A stretch of DNA of 64,000 nt from Nautilus pompilius (Eukaryota > Mollusca > Cephalopoda > Nautilida > Nautilidae), in the NCBI GenBank assembly GCA_018389105.1, contig JACATO010000308.1, positions 1,611,001 through 1,675,000 on the forward strand, read 5' to 3'. Shown one piece after another: positions 12,301 to 62,695 of this stretch. Numbering within the stretch: the stretch's first letter is position 1; each line of letters opens with the position of its first letter. The translations under genes were made by a program, and so were the position numbers. The notes beneath the pieces are model-generated. The model saw only the letters and a program-made list of their open reading frames with translations, ran no database searches and was not told the origin of the DNA.

Positions 12301-15300
12301 GACAGATTCATATTAGTCAACAGAGGGATAAATCTCACTAATTAAATGAATAAAATTTGAATTTAAATCTAATATACAAACCTGCCTATTGTTCTTTTGA
12401 TGATGAGAGCATTTTAATCAGCATTATAGATGTCTGATAGGACATACAACCATAAAATGTTGAGCAACCTGTCATCCTTCTACCTAGTGGTAGCATCGCT
12501 AAAGCAGTCCGCTTCTCGCCATTCTCCTTGAAAACAACATTATATCTATCCTTTTAATTCATCCTTAGCCATTCATCAGATTCCTTTAAATTCTCAATCT
12601 TCTCTGTGAGCTGGATGGGCATTTCTTTAATGGTTGGCCTAGATGCTCCAGCACCCTGTCATAATTTTTGTTCAAACCATATGAAAAAGGCCTTGTTGGT
12701 ATCAGGTTCTCTTTTTTGACATTTCTTCCAGTCAGCTTTAGTTAAAGTTGATATATTGTGTTTAAAGTTTCCTCTTTTTTTCTCAAAATTTCACTTACTG
12801 CAAGCTTGCTAACCAAGAAATGGGGTGCCATGTTTTCCTGTCAGACTCGTTGATGATTTTAACATTCCCTTTGAGCAAAAGATTTTTCACAGTGTGATGT
12901 GGGCATCAGCACAGACTCTCTGCCCATTCACACAACCTTTTTTGGTATGGTCCCACAGTGCTGGGATAAGCTGAATTAATAAAGGCACTATTATATATCC
13001 ATCCGATTTTTATTAACTATTGTTCTGATACTCCACTTTAAGACAAAGACCACAATGTTGACAATGGAACTAATCAGCAGTTGTTTGTATGTGGGTTTCA
13101 TACCTATAAATAATGTACTATGCTTTTTTACCATACAGGCAATTCTGCTGTTTGTCATTAGGCTATGTACAATTTTTACATTGTTCCTGTTCTTTGTGAC
13201 CAAAGATCAATATTCAGTTAAGCATCACAAGCAAAAACTTCACTGGATGGGAGTGACTTTGGCTGCATGCTGGGTGGAAGCAGGTGGCATGCCATGTTTT
13301 ATTGTAGGTAGGACAGGTTGGTAGTTGACATTAACTGGCAATAGTTCTGAGGTGGTTGAAAATGCCAACTTGTGGGGTAATATATATAAAACATTTGTTC
13401 TCATTCTCTGGAATAAGTTGACAGTACCAGAAAATGTCTGTTATCAGGGTTGATAATAACGAGCTTCTACTGTACTAGTGCAGCAGTAGCCTGCTGTTAA
13501 TTTTAAGGTTGGGAAATTTAAAAGAAAAGAAAAATGTTTGTACGTATATTTGTTTGTATGTGTTAGTTACAGAAAGTCCAGCCTTATAGCTTTTTTTTTT
13601 TTTTTTTTCCATTTTAGGCCATAAATGTGAACATTGTGAGGACCTTCACTGCTTTAATGGAGGAGTGTGTTTCCGGGAAAATGGAAAGTCCTATTGTCGA
13701 TGTCTTCCTGACTACCTTTCAGAATCTCAATGTAAGATGGACAGTCAGTGCCACAGCTATTGCAAGCATGCTATGTCCTGTAGTATAAAGAATGGCATTC
13801 CAATATGCAAGTGTCCTCCAACTCGAGCGGGAAATCGGTGCGAAATAGACCGCTGCAAAAGCTTCTGCAAAAATGGGGGTAAGTCTTTATTTCCAATTAC
13901 TTTTATTTTTATTATTAGTTTATTCTAGAATACCACCATTAGTATGGTAAATATAAAGTATACAAATAACACATGGCTTACTCCATTTGGCATATTTCAC
14001 ATTCATTAGAATATGATGGAGAAATGATTTTCTTAGGATTTGGTTTCTTTAACTTTACAATACTCCTTTGTTGTATCACTGGTCTGTCTAATCTGTTCCA
14101 TGACACTTTCTGTTCATCAGGTCAGTTAACTCTTAGTTTTTGGATAGCAGCTAGAGAACTTCTGCACTAATAAGGCAGTTTTTCTCATTTTTATGTCTTT
14201 GATTTCTGCTAACTTGAATTGATTAAAGGCAGTTTGTTTCAATTCTTTTAGTTCTTTTTATGATTTTTTAACATGGAGAAAATGACATTAGAATAAGCCA
14301 TTTTTTATTCTGTTATAATATTTAATGTGAACATTGTTAGCTGCAGGATTTCTCATGACGGGGGGACAGAAAATAGCCGCAGGATAAATTATGGGGGGGG
14401 ACAAATTGACAAAATATCAAGTGTGGGAAATGAAAGCATACTAACATCAAAAAATAAAAACATGCTAACATGTTTTTTTTAATACTTTGAAATATTTCTT
14501 GTGATTCATTTAGAATTTTCTTAAATTTAATTCAATTTTTTCAATGTGAGTATGCTTTCTTTGCTATCGTGCTACCCCATAGAAATTTTCAATAACATAA
14601 ACAAAAAAAAAAAAAATTTTATTCAATACAAATTGTAAACCTCTTCTGGTCTTATCCAGATTTATCTATTACTTTTCAATAAGTTCTTGCTTGCTAGCTG
14701 TAACTTTTGCTCTATAAACACTTATCATTACAAAGTCCAGACAAGCAATTATCTGTCATTGTTGACCTCAGCCATGTTTTCACTCTTCTCATCATGCTGC
14801 AAATTGTTACTGGTGATGTTAAAGCAATATGAATTGCTTGATAAATGGAAGGGAATAGATCTGTGTATTCTAACAACTCAGTGAGTCCATTTTTTAATTT
14901 GTTAACACATTGTTCCCCCTTTTTGGACCATATCTCAAGCCAGATGATAGCTTTGGCTTCAAAGTTTTCAATTTCATACACTTTATTTATTTTTACAATT
15001 TGATTTCTGAATTCTTCACATCCAATGATAGCTTTGGCTTCAAGGTTTTCAATTTCATACACTTTATTTATTTTTACAATTTGATTTCTGAATTCTTCAC
15101 ATCCAATGTGTACTGTTTTTACAGGATAAAGGCAAAAAAAAAACAGAAATTTTGTTTATTTTTTGTAGCCAAGCAGCAGTCTAGTGAAAAAATGATTGAG
15201 TCCAAATATGGTATAAACAATGTTTGACAAAAATATTCCTCCAAGATTGAGCCACCAACATTAGATGGAAATGTCTGCCGTTGCATTGTCTGGGAACAGA

Positions 15301-35917: not shown

Positions 35918-38900
35918 GTAAAGTTCCCTTTATTTTTTTGAAACTTGGGAGTCTGCGAACCGATCGACAGCGGGAGGAGGAGGAGGAGGATGAGGGGGGG
36001 GGGCCTCTGGACGCGCAAACCTCCCCGTGTGCCCGCCGGATCATCTAAAGACCGAAATAGTCTGTTTATGGCCGGGTATTCATGTGGAGGGAAGGCGATG
36101 TTCAGGTTACCAAAGGGTGAAACTACGGATTATTTGTTTGGCTCTTGACCATGGCGTGGGAAGTCTTGTAGCGGGCACCTCCTGACCCCCTCCCCCTCAC
36201 ACACACCCCACTTGTATGTCAGCCATGCCTCACCTGCCCAGTACACATTTATTTTTGGCAGTAAAAGGAGAAAACATTTATTAGGCGCAAGAGAATTTTA
36301 GAAAAATATTTGTCTATTTGTTTGTCGTCTCCCCCCCACCTACACCTCCCTTGATCCAGCCACGCAAATACTTCAGACGGATCTCTCTGCTGGTCCACCA
36401 TATATTAAAGTCAACACAGTAACATTAGACTTTGACGGGGAAAAGTTGAAAGAAGTCTTCCCCCCCCCTCTCCAGAGAGAAGTCCCCCCCCTAAGAGAAG
36501 TCCCCCCCTCTCCAGAGAGGCCTCCCCCTAAGAGAAGTCCCCCCCTCTCCAGAGAGGCCTCCCCCTAAGAGAAGTCTCCCCCTAAGAGAAGTCCCCCCTC
36601 TCCAGAGAGGCCTCCCCCTAAGAGAAGTCCCCCCTCTCCAGAGAGGTCTCCCCCTAATAGAAGTCCCCCCTCTCCAGAGAGGTCTCCCCCTAAGAGAAGT
36701 CCCCCCCTCTCCAGAGAGAAGCCTCCCCCTAAGAGAAGTCCCCCCTCTCCAGAGAGAAGCCTCCCCCTAAGAGAAGTCCCCCCTCTCCAGAGAGAAGCCT
36801 CCCCCTAAGAGAAGTCCCCCCTCTCCAGAGAGAAGCCTCCCCCTAAGAGAAGTCCCCCCTCTCCAGAGAGAAGCCTCCCCCTAAGAGAAGTCCCCCCCTC
36901 TCTCCAGAGAGAAGCCTCCCCCTAAGAGAAGTCCCCCCTCTCCAGAGAGAAGCCTCCCCCTAAGAGAAGTCCCCCCTCTCCAGAGAGGTCTCCCCCTAAT
37001 AGAAATCCCCCCCTCTCCAGAGAGAAGTTTCCCCCTAAGAGAAGTCCCCCCCGCTCTCTCCAGAGAGGTCTCCTCCTAAGAGAAGTCCCCCCTCTCCAGA
37101 ATGGCGTAATTCCATTTATAAGTTAATTGGTTTTTATTAATAATTAACAAAATCAAAATAACCACATGGGCTACCACATTGCATTGTTTACTGTCGTCTT
37201 TTGACTGATTTCAAGGTCTCAGTTGTTTGTATTGCTAATTTAAAATGCATTCATAAAATTAAAAGTAAAAATAACTGCGACATTTTTACTCCTTTTGATG
37301 GCTGTCATACAACTGCCATCATCACGTAGTCAAAATAACCCTTTCTCTCCCCTTGGCCGCCGCCGCCGCCTCGCGGTAACGTCATCTGTCGGTTATTCGG
37401 CTGTGTGGTGACGTCACAAATCGGTAAAAGTGATTTCCACTGTGGATTTTGATACTTTTACCTCGCATCCTAAACTTTACTAATACCAACCAGCGTGTTC
37501 TCCTTTGTTATTTTTATTGGCTTGTAAAGTTCCCTAACCGTATACTGTGACTGCTGTAGAAATTCTATAAACTGTTTGTAGTGGAGATTAAATCAACAAC
37601 AAAATTTGGAATTCTTCTCTTTGTTATATTTGTTGTAGTATATTTACCTATTTATTAGTATCTCTCTCTTAACTGTTAGTTTTCTAATAACATTATAATT
37701 TTTGAATTTCTATACACTAACTATCTTTTTAGTTTTATGTTTCTGCTTTTTTTTTCTTGTTTGATTGTAGTTTTTATATTGTTATTAGAAATGTAGTAAT
37801 TTATGGTTTAATAATGCCTAAATATATGAAAAAGAAAAATATAATACACTACTTTATACGATGTGGCTTAGAAATTGTTACATTTTGAAACAAAGTATTT
37901 TTTTTTTTTTTTCAGTTTGAATTTTACCAAATCTAATGAATTAAGGATTTTGGGGGTTGAAAGATGAATTTTTATGGGTGATGTTTCTTAGCTGTTGATA
38001 TTTAGTTGGTATAGTGGAATAGAGACGGCGATCATAAGTGAAGGAAATATAGATTCAGTGGTATCATGTGTCTATTTTCTAGTGCACTTGTCTGAACATG
38101 GTGTATTATGGTATTTATCATATTTTTGGAAACCACAGGCTTTTCATTCAAATGGTTTAAAATGTAAAATATAATCTGATGGTAGCATGCTATCGTTACA
38201 GGAAAATTTTATTACCTATGTTTTGTGATTCTCACAATTAAGGAAATGCCTTTAAAAATAATAAAACCAGTAAAAAGTTATGCAAAATCTCTATGTGCAT
38301 TCAGACAAGTGTTAACTTTAAATTAAAAAGAGTATTATAAAATCTGATGAATAGCCAATGATAAAAATGTGTCTGTGTGTTTTACTTATTCAATGAACTT
38401 TACAAGATTACTCTGGCAAGTTTGTTTAGAATGCCAAAATTAAGTAAGTTCTAGAAGAACCCAAAATCAGTTATTAGCAAAATAATGCATTTTTGAAGTT
38501 AACTTTCTTTGACTGCTAAATTGTTCTTTCTACAAGCCAAATAATATAATTAAATATAATTTTGATGGAACAACTAAATTAATCTAGATCTTTTTTACTA
38601 GTGGAAATATTGAACCATTGGTTTCAGGTTTTCCAAATTTAATTTTTAACTAGAATTTTCTAATATATAGATATAGAAGCTACCTTTTAATGAGTATGAC
38701 TGCTTTTGGAGAATAACTTTGATAAGTTGAATAATTTTTTTAAAGAGTTCCATAATTAATCTCAATTATAATAGACTTTTGTGTGGCAGACAATCAAACT
38801 CAAAAGGTTTATAATTTAATCAGTGCAATGCTTTTCTTTTTTTGCATTAGTAAGTAATATGAACATTAAAAATGGGTGGTTATTAAAATTAAGGATAACA

Positions 38901-51987: not shown

Positions 51988-52719
51988 TATTTATGTTCTT
52001 CCAAACATTTAACCAGTAGTGTAACTCTAATAGGACATACTGCTAGTGTAGTATTACTTTTAATTTATATTTGTGCATTATTTTTAATTTTGACACCCAA
52101 GTCACCATTTTCAGAAACTTACAAAAATGTTAGTGTTTGGAATTGGAAACCATTCAGACTTGTTTTAGGTAATACTATGCATGTTATGTTAAAGTGATAG
52201 CTGGCTAGATACAATTACGATGATTCTATTTCAGCTGGGTTTCATCTGATCCCTAGTATTTTTTGTAATATACTGTCAAAGTACATTTATATTATAGTGG
52301 GATTTAATTTATGAGTGATTTTTTTTTAAATAACAAAAACTGAAAGATAATTTAATTCTATATTAAAAATTAATTAAATAGTTTAATTTGTTAGCTCACT
52401 CTGTGCAAAAATAATAGAAAAGAGAAGAATCATTTAAATAATACTTTTTCAACATAATGAAATTTAGTTTTAAAACAGAGAGAGAGAGAGGAATAACCAG
52501 GTCATTCATTTGAACAACTCAGCTTTATATATATATATATCTTAATATTCTCAGAATATAGTAACAGAATAACTCAGCATATAAACATAATTAAGACAAT
52601 TTAAAAAATTATAAAATTCAGAAAACAAAGTTTAAAATCTCTATTCATAATATTCAAATAAAAATAAATTCAATGTTATTGTTAAATACATCGTAACAAC
52701 ATATCTGCTGCCTTTTGTA

Positions 52720-53992
52720 TTAGGTCATTACAAAAGTTTTGTCGGTTTTTATATTATGTTAATTTGGGGTTCATTTTTTGCATGCTTGTGAAGGTGTATG
52801 TAGATAAATTATATTTCATTTTGCAGCATGTGCTTTGGCATACATTATGCAAAACCTACCTTTTTAAAAATCATAAAATAGATATTTATTCACAGTTCTG
52901 AGTGAAGCATGGATAGAAAGGTTTTCATGCAATTTTGCTTCAGGAGTTCAAACTGGGCTACAAAGCGAGTGAGGCAACTCATAACATTAAGCAAGCATGG
53001 GGCAAGGACACAGAAAATGAGCACACAGTACATTGATGGCTTGAAAAGTTTCAATCAGGATATGAGAGCCTTGAAGATAACCAATGTAGCAGACATCCTT
53101 CAAGCTGTGATGACAACAATCTGAATCTCAGTTGAAGCCAATCCAAGAAAAGCAGTACGAGAAATTGCTGGAGAGCTTGATGTAAGCACTGCAACTGTTT
53201 CCTGGCATCTTGATGCAAGGTGAGAAAGCTTGACAAGTGGGTGCCTCACAACTTGAATGAACAACAACAAAATCGTTGATCGGAGATCTGCTCTTCGCTT
53301 GTCATAAGAAACAAAAACGACCCATTTCTTGACCGAATCATTACGTGTGATGAAGAATGGGTCCTTTATGACATTTGCAAATGATCAGCACAGTGGCTTG
53401 ACAGAGACATGGCACCAAACCACATTCCAAGACCCAACTTCCACCCAAAGAAGGTCATGGTCACTCTGGTGGACTGCAACTGGTGTCATCCACTATAACT
53501 TCTTGCAACCTGGCGAACATCCCATCTGAAAGGTAGTCATAAATTAAACATTGTTCATCAGAAACTCTCTCTCCCAACAACAACTGGCATTGATGAAACG
53601 AAGAGGCCCATTCCTACTCCACAACAATGCTCATTGTCATGTTGCAAAAGTGACTCTTCAAAAACTGAACATGTTGGGGTACAAAGTTATCCTGCACCCA
53701 GCCTGTTCACCAGACCTTTCTCTCTCAGACTACCACCTTCACAAACACCTCAACAGCTGCTTCCATATGAAATCCTCCTCCAACCAAGCAGCAATTGAAA
53801 CTGCCTTCCAGCAGTTTATTGACTCCAGAAATCCGGACTTTTTCCAAAATGGTATAAATGTGCTTGTAACTTGTTAGCAGAAGTGTATTGATTGTAATGG
53901 ATCTTACTTTGATTGATAAACTTCACATTCAGAAAAGATATGAAGTCTCATTGTTGTGGTTAAAAAACTGACAAAATGTTTTAAACACCTAA
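52720..53992 (+). mobile_element. Complete-ended mariner (SETMAR-like DD34D), inactive
   Basis: 1273 bp with TA at 52718-52719 and 53993-53994. Inverted ends are TTAGGTCATTACAAAAGTTT and, inverted on the right, TTAGGTGTTTAAAACATTTT. The transposase begins near ATG 52909 and is split by stops and shifts to about 53877. Catalytic blocks are TCDEEW (D codon 53349-53351), LLHNNAHCH (N codon 53623-53625 where D is expected) and SPDLSLSDYHL (D codon 53728-53730). The second-to-third spacing is exactly 34 residues. Confidence 0.9.
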
Positions 53993-54589
53993 TAAAACAT
54001 GCAAAAATTTAAAAGCAACAAAAACAAAATTTCAATTATTTTTTTCTTCTGCATCCTGAATAATTAAAAATGTTTTAAAAATGTAATAATGATTTTGATA
54101 AGTGAATGATTCATAACTAAATTTGGCTAATTAATTTAAGTAAAGTTACATTTCTTTTTTGGCTATAAATTGTGAGTCCAATTTCAGTGAATTTTGAATA
54201 TTCACTTTCTACAAAAGTATTATAAACAAAATTGGAAAAGGGAAGTTAATTGCATATATCAATTATTGTTTTAAAACAATATGTGATTAATTGTGTGTCT
54301 GGTTTCTGCAATATTACAACAGTTACTTCCCCTCTATTTTTTTAACACTGGTTGCACGAACAAATAAAATTTGTGGAATTGCATGATTAGTTCCTGAAAT
54401 GGCCAGATCCAATGAGTTTTCTTCATGCCATTACCAAAGCTAAATAACCCTCCCTCTCAGTCTGGCTCTACCCATTCATGAATCAAGAAAAAAATAAGAG
54501 CATTATACAATGGCTGTTTCATGCAACTGCCATTAAGATAATTGACATAATTGTTTAGACTGAAGTAAATGCATGTGTAGGTGACAGTC

Positions 54590-57330
54590 AAGACATGGTT
54601 AATCTGAACCAATTTACAGAGAAATTGATGATGACAAAGAGACTGAATGTAAAAAAAGGACACACAATGCACCCTTTTAAGGAATCGGAGGAGCAAATGA
54701 TGCCAACATTGGACGTGGAATGCCCAGCAAAGAAGCAAGAAAGACCATTATCAATAATGGATTTGGAAGAAGAATCAGTCAGCCGAATGATCCACTATGT
54801 AGGTGTTATGTTTTGATAGAATTTGTGAGGTGATATATCCTCATAATCCTGATCTGTTTAAAAAAGAAGTGCATAATAGCCCATCAGAGAGTGCTTCAAA
54901 AGTCAAATTGTTGATGAACATGAATGAAGATGTTGATCAGCAGTTTGCCCAAATAGAATATTCAAAAGCATTTATTGCTGGTTCTGATATGCAAAACCTT
55001 CATTGGTATTAATGAAGAGTATGTGACAACTCCCAGGCGACATTTCAAATACATGGTTGAAGGTAATGCACTTGCTGTTGAAAGAAATGTATTTCAATAC
55101 ATTGAATCGACAATTCTTTTATTGTACGAATCAAATGTACAAATGATGTCCTGGGGAACAAAAAAGATCTTATTGGATGGTAATGACACAGATTTTCCGA
55201 GATCCAATTGATTAAATCGGTGTTACTTCACTATCAAAAATACTTAAGGCTCTAACATTAAAGACGTGAAGGCAAAAAAGATTGTCAACTATGTATCAGG
55301 AATTTTATTTTGTAATACTTTTGACATGATAAATCACATTATATCTACTTCAACCACTCATGCTGTTGAATTGAAGTAGTTAGTCCATGCATTGGAAGCA
55401 TTTATGAAATCAGTGTTTGAAACCATTTGTCAAAGATAGATCAACATCAGTGGATTATTCATTGAATACTAATAGCAGTTTAGTATCAACTAATTGTGAA
55501 ACCTGCTGCTTGTGGTTCAAAGCATTTGAGTTTGTCAAGGAAAGGGTCAACTTGGAGCATGAGCAATTATTACTAGATTGCATTGATAAGATTAAACTCA
55601 ACCTGGGACACAGGATCTGAGTCTACAACCAGTGGGCTCATATTAATAGAATTCTAGTATCCCTTACTCAGAAACAAGCACACTTTGTAATGGATTTCAA
55701 GATGAAGTTTGAGATGATGTACTTTTGTGAAAAAATCATAGATCAATCACTATGGCAAAAAAGGAAATTTTTGGCAAGGAATGATGATCTATATGAGATA
55801 TGATCCAAATGAGAGCAAGCAAAATTTATATGACCATCACATGTATTATGACCAAATTGCATCAGGTGACGCGAAACAACATTGGCTGGCAGTGTTAACC
55901 TACTTTGAATGAAGCAGGTGTGTTGTGTTTGTGGCATGACTGCCCTGAAGTAAAAGAGATTTATGTCCAATCGGACAATGCAAAGTGATACCAAAAGCTG
56001 GGGCTAGTGTATTTTATGAATGTGGTTGTGAAACGTCATGGATTCAACCTTGTTTTTTTTTTTCATCCACACGGATACTCAGGATGAAGAAGGTCCTCTT
56101 GATGGTCATTTTGCTATTGCAATGAAATATGTATCAAGGTATTGCAACACAGGTAACAACATCAGCACCGAATGTGATTTAATTGAAGCTCTATGTTTGA
56201 ATGGAGGTATAAACAATTCTGTTGTGGAAATGGTTTGCTCCAATCGAAATAAACTGGAGCAATTTCAAGCGGAACATGGGCATGCTTTGCAGAGTTTCAA
56301 ATGTGTGACTCAATGTAACAAGGTCAATGTTGATCATAATAGTAAATGAGTACATATTTATGAGTATTCAGGAATTGATTTGGGCAAAGTAATTAGCGTT
56401 GAGGCTGTGGATGATGGATGGTAGTGCTAACGGTGAAGCTAATGATGAGGTGCTTCATTCTGATGATAAAGATGACTGTGGATGAAAATGAAGAATGTGT
56501 TATTGATATGGACGATACACCAAGTGTTGGTGCTGTGTCTAACACCACATTTGTTGGACCAATAACGAACTGCACTATTTCACATAGCATGTGGATGACT
56601 ACAAATTAAGAGGATACAAACCAATCTTGCTGCAATGGAAGCATTTGCTTATATGGAGGAAAGCCAATTACAATGCTCATTTTGTCAGAGGCAGTACAGC
56701 TTCGTTGTGTGAGTAAATCTGTGCACCTGCAAAGGAGTTGCTGAACAACAGGATTTAGTACACTATGCATTTAAATATGCAATCGCTCAGATCCATCAAT
56801 CAACACCAAGTTGAATACGTTGATGTGAATCCTGATGGAGTTGATATCGGGGAATTGAGTTGCATCCAAAGTATCATGGCTTTGGAAGACTTTGGACCAG
56901 GTTGGCCTTGTCGTCAGTCCTGGGATAAAGGGTATGGTAAAAAATACATTGAAGATTTCTAAGCCAGTGTTGAGAAGATGTTCTTGGATGGGACTTGAGA
57001 CAAATCATTGAAAATGGGCCCTGGTAGAATGCAAGAGAAACTACTGCAAATTTATCCTTGTTGCCTAGATATCTCTTCAGAAACTGAAATTAGAGGAGCA
57101 ATTCAAATGCTTTTCAATAAACAAAAGAAAGGAGGACAGGCAGTGACAATGCAATCAAGAACAAGGGGATTGAAAGTGCTTTACTACTCCATCGTGCTAT
57201 GTATATTTGTGGAGTCTAATGGAGCCAAAGTAGGGAATGCAGCCTGGAGTGAGTTTCAAAAGGCTCGCCTGTCTTTTGAGGCAGCAAACTATCCTTCAAA
57301 AATGAACAAGTTACATCCAAAATAAACTCA
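54590..57330 (+). mobile_element. Decayed element with an under-described DDE-like transposase
   Basis: Peptide fragments over 2.7 kb all read on the plus strand and belong in order to one large protein. They include KHFKYMVEGNALAVER-like text (about 55040-55090, reading RRHFKYMVEGNALAVER), VMDFKMKFE at about 55687-55713, QSDNAK (55968-55985), HTDTQDEEGPLDGHFAIAMK at 56068-56127, a CSFC zinc-like knuckle at 56674-56685, and GPGRMQEKL plus SSETEIRGAIQMLF at about 57014-57115. The D-containing MDFK, SDNA and HTDTQD blocks are spaced like an RNase H-fold catalytic triad. Stops and frameshifts show it is dead. It does not match Tc1, hAT, piggyBac, Tigger or Harbinger hallmarks, and the ends are not found. 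Confidence 0.6.
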
Positions 57331-60021
57331 TTGAAGGCCAAATTCAAGAAAACAAGTGAACTATCAGTCATGAGAAGGTATTAAAAGGTGTTTATTTGCC
57401 ATAAGTTACTTGATGGATGACAATTAATGTAAATCTTCATAACTAGGACATTTCTGGAGTAAATAAAAGTATCTGCATGAGTAAATGATCATAATTTTCG
57501 TTTAAATCACTAAACAAGACTTTTTATGCAGTTTCTACTTATGTCAAATTCTGACTGTTTCATATTGCACCTCTAAACTCCCTGGCCTGGCTCTTGCGCT
57601 GACTGTTAAAGCAAAATTGGCTATTAAAATTTACTGCCATAGTTGACAGTTTCAAAGACATGTTTATTGTATTGTGATGATAATATTATTTAACTTGTAA
57701 TTCTTGGAACTTGTATTTAATAAAGCATTTTATATAAAATTTTAAAAACTTAATGATATATTTATTACTAGCAGTAGCTATATAATTACAATCACAATTG
57801 AACTATAGAAATAAATTCTTAATCTTATAAAAATTAAAATTATTATTATTCATATGATATGAGTTTATTAAATTTTGGCTATTTTATTAACTGTTTCAGT
57901 GGTCTTGAAAAAAAATACAAAAAAAGAAAATTATAAATATTAGCACTACCTTGAGTTTATTTGAAACTACAGCATATTCTTTTTGCATAAAAAATAAATA
58001 CAATTTTAACATTTAATTTTCATAGTATAGGCAAAATGGCAGAAGTATATAAATCAAGGATTATTGCATCTCTTATAATAAAAGAGGAGGGATAGTGCAG
58101 CTAGTATGAATAATTCTATAATTGTTGGTAACATTTTACATGAAACATTTTTCTAAACTTCAACTTAAGATTAAGTTTTACATTGAAAATTTTCTGAAAC
58201 ACTGAATTATTTTAAATTGTTGACATATACCCTTTCAGTATGAGAATAGGAAAGTTCTTTTTAAAAACCTTGCAACTTCAATTCTCACAGTTGGATGATT
58301 TTGACCATTTAAATGACAAATGTTTTGCTTTGGTACTTTTTGTTTTTGTGCGCTGAAAAGATGCCAGACTGTACACATCGTTGTTGTAATGGTGATGGAT
58401 AGCCCAGTAGCTGACTGTGATTCAATTAAACTTTATTGGTGAACAATTTTGGAGAGAAAAAAAGTTTTGATGTGAAATAATAATAATAAAAACAAAAAAA
58501 AGTGTATTTCACCTTCTTTTTTTTTTTTTTTTAAATTAGCACCACCATGAGAAATTATGTTAAGTTGGGTTTCTGGAAATAATTTTTAAATAGTATGATA
58601 AGTTTAAAATTGTTTAGCTAAACAAACCAGGATTAACATGAGATTTAATGTGCTGATTATTATTAATGGATGAGTGCAATATATCCTACTCTTCATAAGG
58701 AAATAACAAAAAAAGGTCAAATCTATTGTCAACAATGAAAATGTCAACTAAAAAAAATCAGTTGCGTAGCTTGCAACCAAATGATGTAATAAAGTCTGGT
58801 GATATAACAAGTTGATGCAGATTAGCTGCTAGATTACCTACCAACCAGCAGATATCATAAATTAGTGGCATGATCAGCTGGGTATGACTCAATTTCCAGG
58901 AATGTTCAGCTATGTTTAATTGGGTTTAGGTCAGAAAAATTTTGTATTTTAGCAAATTCATAAATTTTTCAAATGCTTGGTTGGCCACAAAGAACTAGAC
59001 TCATATTATCTTGTTCAAAATGTAATCCAGATTTGTTCTAACAGTGGTATGTGTCATGCATTGTAAACCGTCTTTTTGCTTATATTTTGCTGGTTTTAAA
59101 TGTAATCGATAGCATAAACAGTGACATTTTAGGGTTTTTTTTTTTTTAATTTGAACTGGCTTAAATTTATTTCAAAATTAGCAGTACTACTAGATGCTTA
59201 GACTAAAAAATTGTCTTACGTTAAAAACCTTACCCAGATCCTAATACCAATGTGCCTATTCTGCTACTGAAATGTAGCATTTGAAAGGTTGGCATAAAAG
59301 TTAATTTACTACTAAAATCAAAAGGCAAGTACTGAGCATGACTATTATATCTATACTATTATGATTGCTCAATTAAAAGCAAAATTCTTCATAGATATCT
59401 GTCCATTGCTTAATTAAAAGGCTAAGTTCTTTTTGATATATCATTTTCAATGATGTTACATCCAAACTTCTGAACAATTTTGTGATCTTTTAATAAATGT
59501 TCAGATAATTTGTTGTTTTTTTTTTCTGCAGTGTTAACATTCTTGCAAACAACTCTTAATAATTGTTTTGTTTTGAAAAAAATCAAATCTTGTAAATATG
59601 GTTCTTCTGTATGTTCATTAGTTTTCAGCATTGCTATAAGTTGAATTCTCACTTAAATATTGCCTGTATATGTGGCTGTTTACTTACTAATTATTTTTGT
59701 TGGGTCTTATCAGCAACAAAATTTAGTCAAAACAACAATTTATACTAATATTAGATTAGTTTCACTGTTGTTATTACTATTTTTTTTTTAATGTAAATTG
59801 TGCATACAATCACAATGAATGAAGGAAAATTTTTAAATATTGTTCATGGATTTAAACAAAAATAGGCAGAATTAAATCCTTTTTTTTTTTTTGAAAATTT
59901 TATTATGTAAAAAATTTGTAATTAGAGTTGTAGTTGCATATTTGTCCAAAAAACTCTGACACTATAGTTTTGTTAGAGACTCTGAGTAAGATTAATATTT
60001 GATTTTCCCTTTTAAGAAATT
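57331..60021. other. AT-rich DNA, nothing recognised
   Basis: Only short A/T-rich ORFs (for example 59422-59652 on minus) without motifs. Confidence 0.45.
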
Positions 60022-60029
60022 GTCTAAGG

Positions 60030-62695
60030 CAGGGGTTCTCTTTGCTATACCGTGACCCCCCCCTAAAATGAATTTTTACGACCCCTCTCCATGAATAAAA
60101 CTAATGATTTCATCAGGGTTAGAGTTTGGCAAAAAAATAGACGGACAGACAGGAGTCGTGAATAAAAATGCTTTTTTTAAAAAACTAATTCATCTACATT
60201 TCATGAACATATGGGCAAATTGCATGCGTTTGATATTTTTATTTGTTGTTGTAATAACAACATAGAAAACAAACTGAAATCAAATTGATTTACAGAGACT
60301 TATTAAGCGGTTTTCTACCGTAAGTCCAGAATATTTTTTTCAACAAATCTCTCAGTCCAGAAAAGTGGCATGTCTGAATATACCACTAACTTTTTATGGG
60401 AAGGGTGAGCTCACTTGCTTTTGTGTAATTCCTAAAATCTGGGTGTTATTTTCAGGACAGATGCGCTCATTTTTCGTTCCAAATTTATTTTTGATTGGTA
60501 TTTGTTTTTTTATTGCAGCAACTGTAGAAAACCCTTACTTGCACAAATAGGATGTTGCAAACGGAATCAGTATTCTCATAGCCTTCTCGCTTAATTCTTT
60601 GTACTCGCTTTGAACACTGATCCAAAATTCAGAGAGAGACATTGTTGGGAATTTTATTTTCAAAGAAGTCTCAGCAGAGAAATCAATGAATTGCTCCTCC
60701 TCGGTAGTAGTGAGTATACCAACTATCAGTTTAGCATCGAATGGGTTCCTTATCCAATCAGATGTTTTTATTTCTGCATCTCGGAAATAGTTCTGAAAGT
60801 GAAATTTTAGAGAAGAAAGATGACTTAAAATGCAAATTTTCACATCTTCACTAATTCATGTGTTACTGCTCTCAATAAATTGTTTTAAAGTAGGAAACAT
60901 GTCTAAAGTTGCATTTTCCATTTTATTCTACCACAGTTCAACTTTTCTAATAATTTTAATTTATCATTGAGTTGAAGAATATTGTTATCACCACCTTGCA
61001 ATGATGTATTAAGAGTGTTCATCTTATGAAATATGTCACATAAATATGCTAACTGCATATTGAAACCACAGTCAATAAACATGCGTGCACTACTATGCCT
61101 TTCTTCAGTTAAATAATGGTAAAGTTCATTTCTCAGTTCAAAAACACGTGTCAAAACATTTCCCAAAGACAGCCATCTTGACTTATAGTAATTCAGTAAA
61201 GAAGTGTGTTCAGCATCCATCTCTTCACAAAACCTTGCAAAGATTCTTGCCTTGACAGATCTGGTTTTTAAATAGTTCACAACATTTATAGTTGTTTGTA
61301 GAATCTTCTCCAATGCTGGGCTCAAGTCTTTCGAAGCAAGATCTTGCCTATGAATCATACAGTGTGTTCAAACAGCATTTGAAAATTTTTGCATATTAAA
61401 GCCTGACATAGATCATGCTCCTTCAGTGTATATCCCTGCACAGTTTGACCACTCTAAAAGATTTGCATTAATGTAGCTATCAATAATACCGAAAAAGTCC
61501 TCAGCTTTATCCTTCCTTGTAATTTCTTTACAGAAGAAGAAATACTAATTTATTTTGCCCTCATCAACGAATCTAATGTCGTACGTTATTAAATGAGCAT
61601 CCTTAGCGTTATCTATGGCCTCATCTATCTGAATGGCAAGTGGTTTGTTTCTTATTTTTTCAATTAGTTGCTCATTTAGATCCTCTGCTATATCTGTGAT
61701 TCAGCAAATAACAGTGTCATTAGACAAAGGGATACTTGAAAGTTGTTTCGCACTAGACTCCCCCAACATAGTTGTAACCATGTCAATAGCTGCTGGAAGA
61801 ATTAAATTTTCTCCAATTGTGTGGGACTTTTTGCACTGGGTGATTCTGTATGCAACTTGATAAGAAGCTAAAAGTGATTTCGAAGGGACAGTTATATATT
61901 TAACTAAATTCACTTTTTTTTTGCTTCCTTTAAATCTCTTCTTCAAATGAAAAAAATCTCTAAGTTTGCTTGGCTTGATACTCTCAGCAGACAGCTTTTT
62001 ATGGCAAATATCTCACTGAGGCCATTCTTCTCCGGTAACAAAAACACTTGTGAAACCAAAAGATATGTAACTTTCATCATACTTTCTTGACTCAGGCTTG
62101 CTTTTATCAGTGCTACCGCGATAGATTGGTCATCATTAGTTTTTCTCTTAATATCCTACAAAAACTTTTACATTTTGAAAGGCTAAAAATTAAAAATAAC
62201 AGGTAAAAATGCTGAACTTTACTAACATGTACACTTCTATAGACACACTAAAGACTACGGATATAGTACTACACACCACACCAGTGGAGATGCTGGGGAG
62301 ACATGAATATTTCAAAGAGAAGTCGAACCCGACATTAGAATTCAGTTTTAATTGGTCACCAATATCTAATAATAGTTTGTCACATGATCAATAGGTGTCA
62401 GTTGTTATATTCTGCAGAAATGAGTTTTGTCCATTTAATTTGTGTTAAAAACCTCAATCCATGACATATCAAAGCAAATTACAAAACTTTAATAATAATG
62501 TAAAGAATACAATATTGTTGGCGGTTTATAGAACCTTGTGCCTCTGCTAAGAAAAGGATACAGGTGGAAAACCGATTCATAAGCTCAAAAGTCCGAGCTC
62601 GATTATTATGTCTGAGGAAATATTTTTACAAAATTTTGTGACCCCCCCCCCCCAACACACTAAGATGCTTGTGACCCACAGTTGGAGAATCACTG
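60030..62695 (-). mobile_element. Complete-ended hAT transposon of ZBED5/FAM200 type with 8-bp target duplication
   Basis: 2666 bp flanked by the perfect duplication GTCTAAGG (60022-60029 and 62696-62703). The left end starts CAGGGGTTCTC and the right end, inverted, CAGTGATTCTC (9 of 11 identical). On the minus strand the transposase reads from about 61950 down to 60540: HTIGENLILPAAIDM, IPLSND, DEAIDNAKDAHL, FCKEIT, HCMIHRQDLASKDLSPALEKIL, SLLNYYKSRWLSLGNVLTRVFEL, and a C-terminal dimerisation-type segment. A few stops interrupt it (for example near 61370 and 61545), so it is recently but surely inactivated. Confidence 0.92.
60535..61946 (-). pseudogene. hAT transposase pseudogene (ZBED5/FAM200-like)
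   Basis: Minus-strand open pieces 61701-61946, 60903-61358 and 60535-60843 belong to one reading order, interrupted by stop codons. The middle piece has the RWLSLG motif of hAT transposases and the H-C-M-I-H-R-Q-x-L-A-S/A-K motif typical of the ZBED5/FAM200 group. The last piece has DWIRNPF...EQFIDFS and FWISVQSEYKELSEKAM, as in the C-terminal hAT dimerisation region. The BED finger expected upstream (62000-62200) is too degraded to recognise. Confidence 0.88.

Follow-up and report, generated by a model that had tools for sequence, protein, structure and literature searches.

A 64,000-nucleotide stretch of the Nautilus pompilius genome (contig JACATO010000308.1, positions 1,611,001 to 1,675,000, or G000:C299:1611001-1675000 in the 727.6-Mb assembly that we searched; hereafter the window) carries what is very probably a class II terminal-inverted-repeat transposon, now dead, of a kind that measures about 3.4 kb and encoded an intron-less, RNase H-like DDD transposase of about 1,000 residues. 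The whole decayed copy occupies 54346..57605 (+, 3260 bp), or 54342-57609 when the TTAA target-site duplication on each side is included. An initial annotation had placed here, at 54590..57330, the remnant of a poorly described DDE-like transposase family; this interval covers most of the open reading frame (ORF) but is too short, since both ends of the element are left out. As that annotation proposed, we consider the element to be mobile because its copies are dispersed, bear terminal inverted repeats, show a TTAA duplication against empty sites and include internally deleted derivatives.

When the assembly was searched at the DNA level with window:54590-57330, at least 93 matching stretches were found (40 of 156 candidates scored), several of them spanning the whole query with an E-value of 0. 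Copies other than that of the window showed 67-89% identity, and those longer than 2 kb 75-82%. A protein search gave at least 157 matches (150 of 237 candidates scored), diverged lineages among them. Twenty copies were retrieved with their flanks. The copies have their ends in common and not their flanks, and those with both ends mostly measure 3.3-3.45 kb; 18 copies, including the window's, diverge by 8-12% from the plurality of their alignment. L015 and L016 form a close pair, with 94% identity over 166 bases of their 5' ends and flanks that differ by eye. L015 also shows, as read by eye from a gap in the alignment, about 0.7 kb of foreign repeat-like sequence within its 3' part (L015:6338-7046). 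Three derivatives of about 1.25-1.44 kb (L048, L049 and L050) keep both ends and have lost internal sequence at differing breakpoints, a pattern that would be common for cut-and-paste elements.

The ends shared by the copies are sharp, reading ...TTAA|CACTGGTCGCGCGAGCCAG on the left and GGCTCGCGCGCCGACTG|TTAA on the right. In the plurality they form an inverted repeat matched at 25 of 29 positions, whose local score was reached by none of 2000 single-base shuffles. With a 143-base left-end query, 31 of the 40 scored matches (121 candidates) started at query base 1, which is the first T of TTAA, and a 133-base right-end query gave 40 scored matches (116 candidates). Of 21 aligned rows, 9 carried an exact TTAA on the left and 15 on the right; in the remaining rows the tetranucleotide was altered or the end was lost or unaligned. 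The right-end TTAA was followed by an A in 13 of those 15 rows.

Empty sites were obtained for L049, an internally deleted copy nested in a repeat which starts with CAGTGGTTCTCAACC and which, from this start, we take to be hAT-like. Both L049 flanks were joined at a single TTAA and used as a query (40 of 68 candidates scored), which recovered the right flank of L049 itself and 39 other sequences spanning the joint. All 12 of the latter that were retrieved are continuous across the joint, where TTAA is found in eight and a tetranucleotide with one base changed in four (L055, L056, L059 and L060). At the filled site the element is flanked by TTAA on either side, and the empty copies have a single tetranucleotide, TTAA or its one-base variant, indicating that the insertion duplicated 4 bp; this comparison concerns one insertion. 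The element thus shows both marks of a terminal-inverted-repeat DNA transposon, the inverted repeats and, for that insertion, the target-site duplication. In a second lineage, subfamily B, TTAA and an inverted repeat of about 30 bp were observed in L030 and L031 at the points where their mutual similarity stops, and one end of each contains GAGCCAGG, which resembles GAGCCAG in the repeat of subfamily A, the one to which the window copy belongs. L032 yielded no comparable pair.

These family ends, together with the L049 empty sites, place the left target-site duplication of the window copy at 54342..54345; it escaped our end-finding script and was taken from direct reading. Next to it, what is left of the 5' terminal inverted repeat reads CACTGGTTGCACGA (54346..54359, +); compared with the plurality, 31 bases are lost near plurality position 12 and another 31 near position 68. 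On the other side, the 3' terminal inverted repeat (57577..57605, -) adjoins the right duplication (57606..57609). Between them, the degraded transposase ORF (54498..57384, +) is spread over all three frames and differs from the plurality by 29 insertions or deletions, 19 of which shift the frame, as counted on one MAFFT alignment.

The plurality of the 18 copies contains a single long plus-strand frame of 1,015 codons that needs no intron and is interrupted by two in-frame stops, at codons 83 and 430. At the first, 8 of 16 readable copies have a sense codon, and at the second 8 of 18. Both stop codons are highly variable between copies, with a pattern suggestive of decay of methylated CpG; transitions make up 53-77% of the differences of the 18 aligned copies from the plurality. 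Since other places in the assembly match the stretch and share this frame, the fragments read in the window are not due to chance. All the motifs named in the initial annotation were recovered on the plus strand in the order given there, as parts of this one ORF. The protein comprises in turn a cysteine-rich N-terminal segment, a long middle region, a DDD core, an acidic linker, a C-x2-C-x12-H-x-C finger and a C-terminal block. In the window the N-terminal segment is decayed (54510..54587, +); in the plurality it gave no Pfam family above the cut-off. The three core blocks are MDFKMKFE (55690..55743, +; first aspartate codon 55693-55695), VQSDNA, overlapping the QSDNAK motif (55965..55982, +; second aspartate codon 55974-55976), and FIHTDTQDEEGPLDGHF, the HTDTQDEEG..LDGHFA block (56062..56112, +; third aspartate codon 56101-56103). 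The CxxC finger remnant (56674..56730, +) has an altered histidine in this copy, and in the plurality it matches Pfam C2H2 only below the cut-off (E 0.1). The C-terminal block KMGPGRMQEKL..SSETEIRGAIQ (57011..57106, +) is conserved and shared by subfamily B (L030). Either of these blocks, the CxxC or the C-terminal one, may serve to bind DNA.

The catalytic core was modelled with AlphaFold2 from L030 (subfamily B) and a 47-row core alignment. The model reached a mean predicted local distance difference test score (pLDDT) of 67.5 and a predicted template modelling score of 0.56, residues 15-45 being poor, and its order b-b-b-a-b-a-b-a is the strand and helix order of RNase H. The modelled aspartates follow strand 1 (D13), follow strand 4 (D99) and open the helix after strand 5 (D140), giving a spacing of D-85-D-40-D. 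Of the rows that cover each position, 9 of 11, 20 of 23 and 22 of 24, respectively, carry an aspartate. With moderate confidence, the three blocks would thus sit at the triad positions of an RNase H-fold DDE/D enzyme, as the initial annotation had suggested from their spacing. An earlier model, for which L015 was the query, reached a pLDDT of only 36.8; a frameshift in the first strand of L015 may be the reason. Neither Foldseek nor VIA-align returned a significant neighbour for the core model. Among the 50 rows listed by each, RuvC, retroviral integrase, viral terminase nuclease and Argonaute domains occurred amid unrelated folds; no cut-and-paste transposase appeared among these rows, which excludes none.

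The core pieces were grouped, mainly by eye, into subfamily A (that of the window), subfamily B (L030-L032, L034, L035, L041, L063 and L064) and subfamily C (L036-L040, L044-L046 and L065), some pieces of the last (L045, L046 and L065) scoring best with the A reference. Differences at first, second and third codon positions of the core are even within A (0.156/0.153/0.160; four copies, 662 codons compared pairwise), show a small third-position excess within B (0.128/0.104/0.175; four copies, 646 codons) and fall mostly on third positions between A and B (0.390/0.336/0.659; 1,681 codons). These fractions are descriptive, the pairs having sequences in common. The pattern indicates that the lineages diverged under protein selection, after which at least the A copies decayed freely.

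We then searched for known families and relatives. Pfam returned nothing above its cut-off for seven fragment proteins of the window, for 5 + 7 pieces of single copies or for three plurality pieces. On the 47 core rows, 12 Pfam families were matched by one row each, with a best E of 0.019, and the matches below the cut-off (Pex16, iSTAND, CdaA_N and similar) were judged to be noise. No match to the family was found among PDB sequences. A protein scan of viral contigs gave 1 pattern match, and further scans of viral and of genome contigs gave 77 and 22, none of which was confirmed; as these collections consist of prokaryotes and viruses, the missing relatives say little about animals. The only DNA-motif match there, L029, has ORFs that, judged by eye, seem phage-like and unrelated. 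Similar proteins may occur in other marine invertebrates, which we use as a lead only. No paper on the motif set of the family surfaced among the literature matches listed, nor was any of six peptide strings found. Extracts of PMC10294476, PMC5753468, PMC4455052, PMC5199201 and PMC8634313 leave its filing unsettled. The family was fairly called poorly described by the initial annotation, since Pfam offers nothing convincing and PDB sequences no match, but its further step to an uncharacterised superfamily is not established, because Sola fits in outline. The annotation set the element apart from Tc1/mariner, piggyBac, hAT and P, among others; defining features of Tc1/mariner, of piggyBac and of the hAT/P/MuDR group indeed fail here. 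Tc1/mariner was excluded by the duplication itself, which is a 4-bp TTAA and not the TA of that superfamily (PMC5199201).

Our best guess at its filing, to which we give an even chance, is that the element belongs to an already described, Sola3-like family of Sola that is in Repbase and merely missing from Pfam; Sola3 is presumably a TTAA-specific Sola group. Sola elements, found in bacteria and metazoans among others, have a DDD transposase, 4-bp duplications, inverted repeats of 11-1124 bp and a size of mostly 2-9 kb (PMC10741241). Set beside this description (PMC10741241), the Nautilus element agrees in its triad, with aspartate as third acid in 22 of 24 rows, in the 4-bp duplication seen at the L049 site, in its inverted repeats and in its size. 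Against this filing, extracts of the papers naming both Sola3 and TTAA yielded no link between the two.

Another explanation, possible although we find it doubtful, could be a new TTAA-specific DDD superfamily distinct from piggyBac, Kolobok and Sola. It might then be characterised by the cysteine-rich N-terminus, a compact DD40D core devoid of an insertion domain, the C2H2-like finger and the KMGPG..SETEIR block; at least three old lineages of it would then lie within one genome. The lack of any Pfam match above the cut-off and of any PDB sequence match is in favour of such a superfamily, but Pfam may cover transposase superfamilies incompletely and, in our opinion, a family so abundant has probably already been met by curators. 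The features tested also speak against piggyBac, Kolobok and CMC (Chapaev). CMC elements start with 5'-CAC, end with GTG and have inverted repeats and a 3-4 bp duplication (PMC4079192). Most A copies share the CAC start, and the element agrees in duplication length and in having inverted repeats; its 3' end, however, is ...GACTG, that is CTG instead of GTG (PMC4079192). Neither C(2)C nor H(4)H motifs were seen in the stretch between the second and third acids (D2-D3), and the third acid is D.

It is less probable still, and in our view unlikely, that the element derives from piggyBac or Kolobok and has retained their TTAA target. Both duplicate TTAA, and piggyBac also has a DDD triad in an RNase H-type domain and a cysteine-rich part, as does our element (PMC9587614, PMC7351741). 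However, in piggyBac D346 and D447 lie about 100 residues apart, with an insertion domain separating strand 5 from the third aspartate (PMC7351741), while D2-D3 measures 40 residues in our element, leaving no room for this domain. Kolobok, which occurs in marine invertebrates, likewise combines TTAA duplication with a DDD/E transposase (KolobokP included), but has 5'-RR/YY-3' termini and a C/DxxH motif (PMC9587614). The Nautilus ends are CA..TG, no zinc finger lies between D2 and the third acid, and the C/DxxH motif, described for Kolobok, hAT, P, MuDR and Dada (PMC9587614), is absent by eye from D2-D3 of the plurality, L015 and L031. Neither superfamily gave a Pfam match and no piggyBac transposase was matched among PDB sequences, searches that a remote kinship would escape. 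Finally, the remnants of a host gene family that was either domesticated or never mobile, and that segmental duplication had multiplied, could account for a large, intron-less and conserved frame, but this is hardly credible given the common ends without common flanks, the internally deleted derivatives, the even decay within A and the empty sites.

Several other features were observed in the window. Pieces of a mariner-like transposase lie at 52718-53994 (+), with a Pfam Transposase_1 match below its cut-off (E 0.0027), and a copy of this repeat unit with 81% identity is found shortly downstream of the element in L022. A C-rich minisatellite with 38/76-bp units (36462-37100) gives the window its highest G+C content (0.444 at 36-38 kb, in 2-kb steps), and an 81-bp tandem repeat in two copies (14944-15108) lies within a minus-strand open frame. 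A 154-codon open frame at 60903-61367 (-) looks hAT/ZBED-derived by eye and has nothing above the Pfam cut-off.

If the terminal-inverted-repeat transposon is read as proposed here, its transposase molecules would bind the inverted repeats of about 29 bp, probably via the cysteine-rich N-terminus, the C2H2-like finger or both. The ends would then be paired and the element excised by the DDD site in a cut-and-paste reaction, after which it would be joined to both sides of a TTAA, repair yielding the 4-bp duplication.

The ends, the duplication, the coding frame and the likely catalytic triad are now given for a transposase family that the Pfam copy searched does not recognise, and such fragments are therefore likely to stand in genome annotations as genes of unknown kind. 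Should the family prove to be TTAA-specific and to lie outside both piggyBac and Kolobok, it would represent another independent route to TTAA, bearing on how transposases recognise this target.
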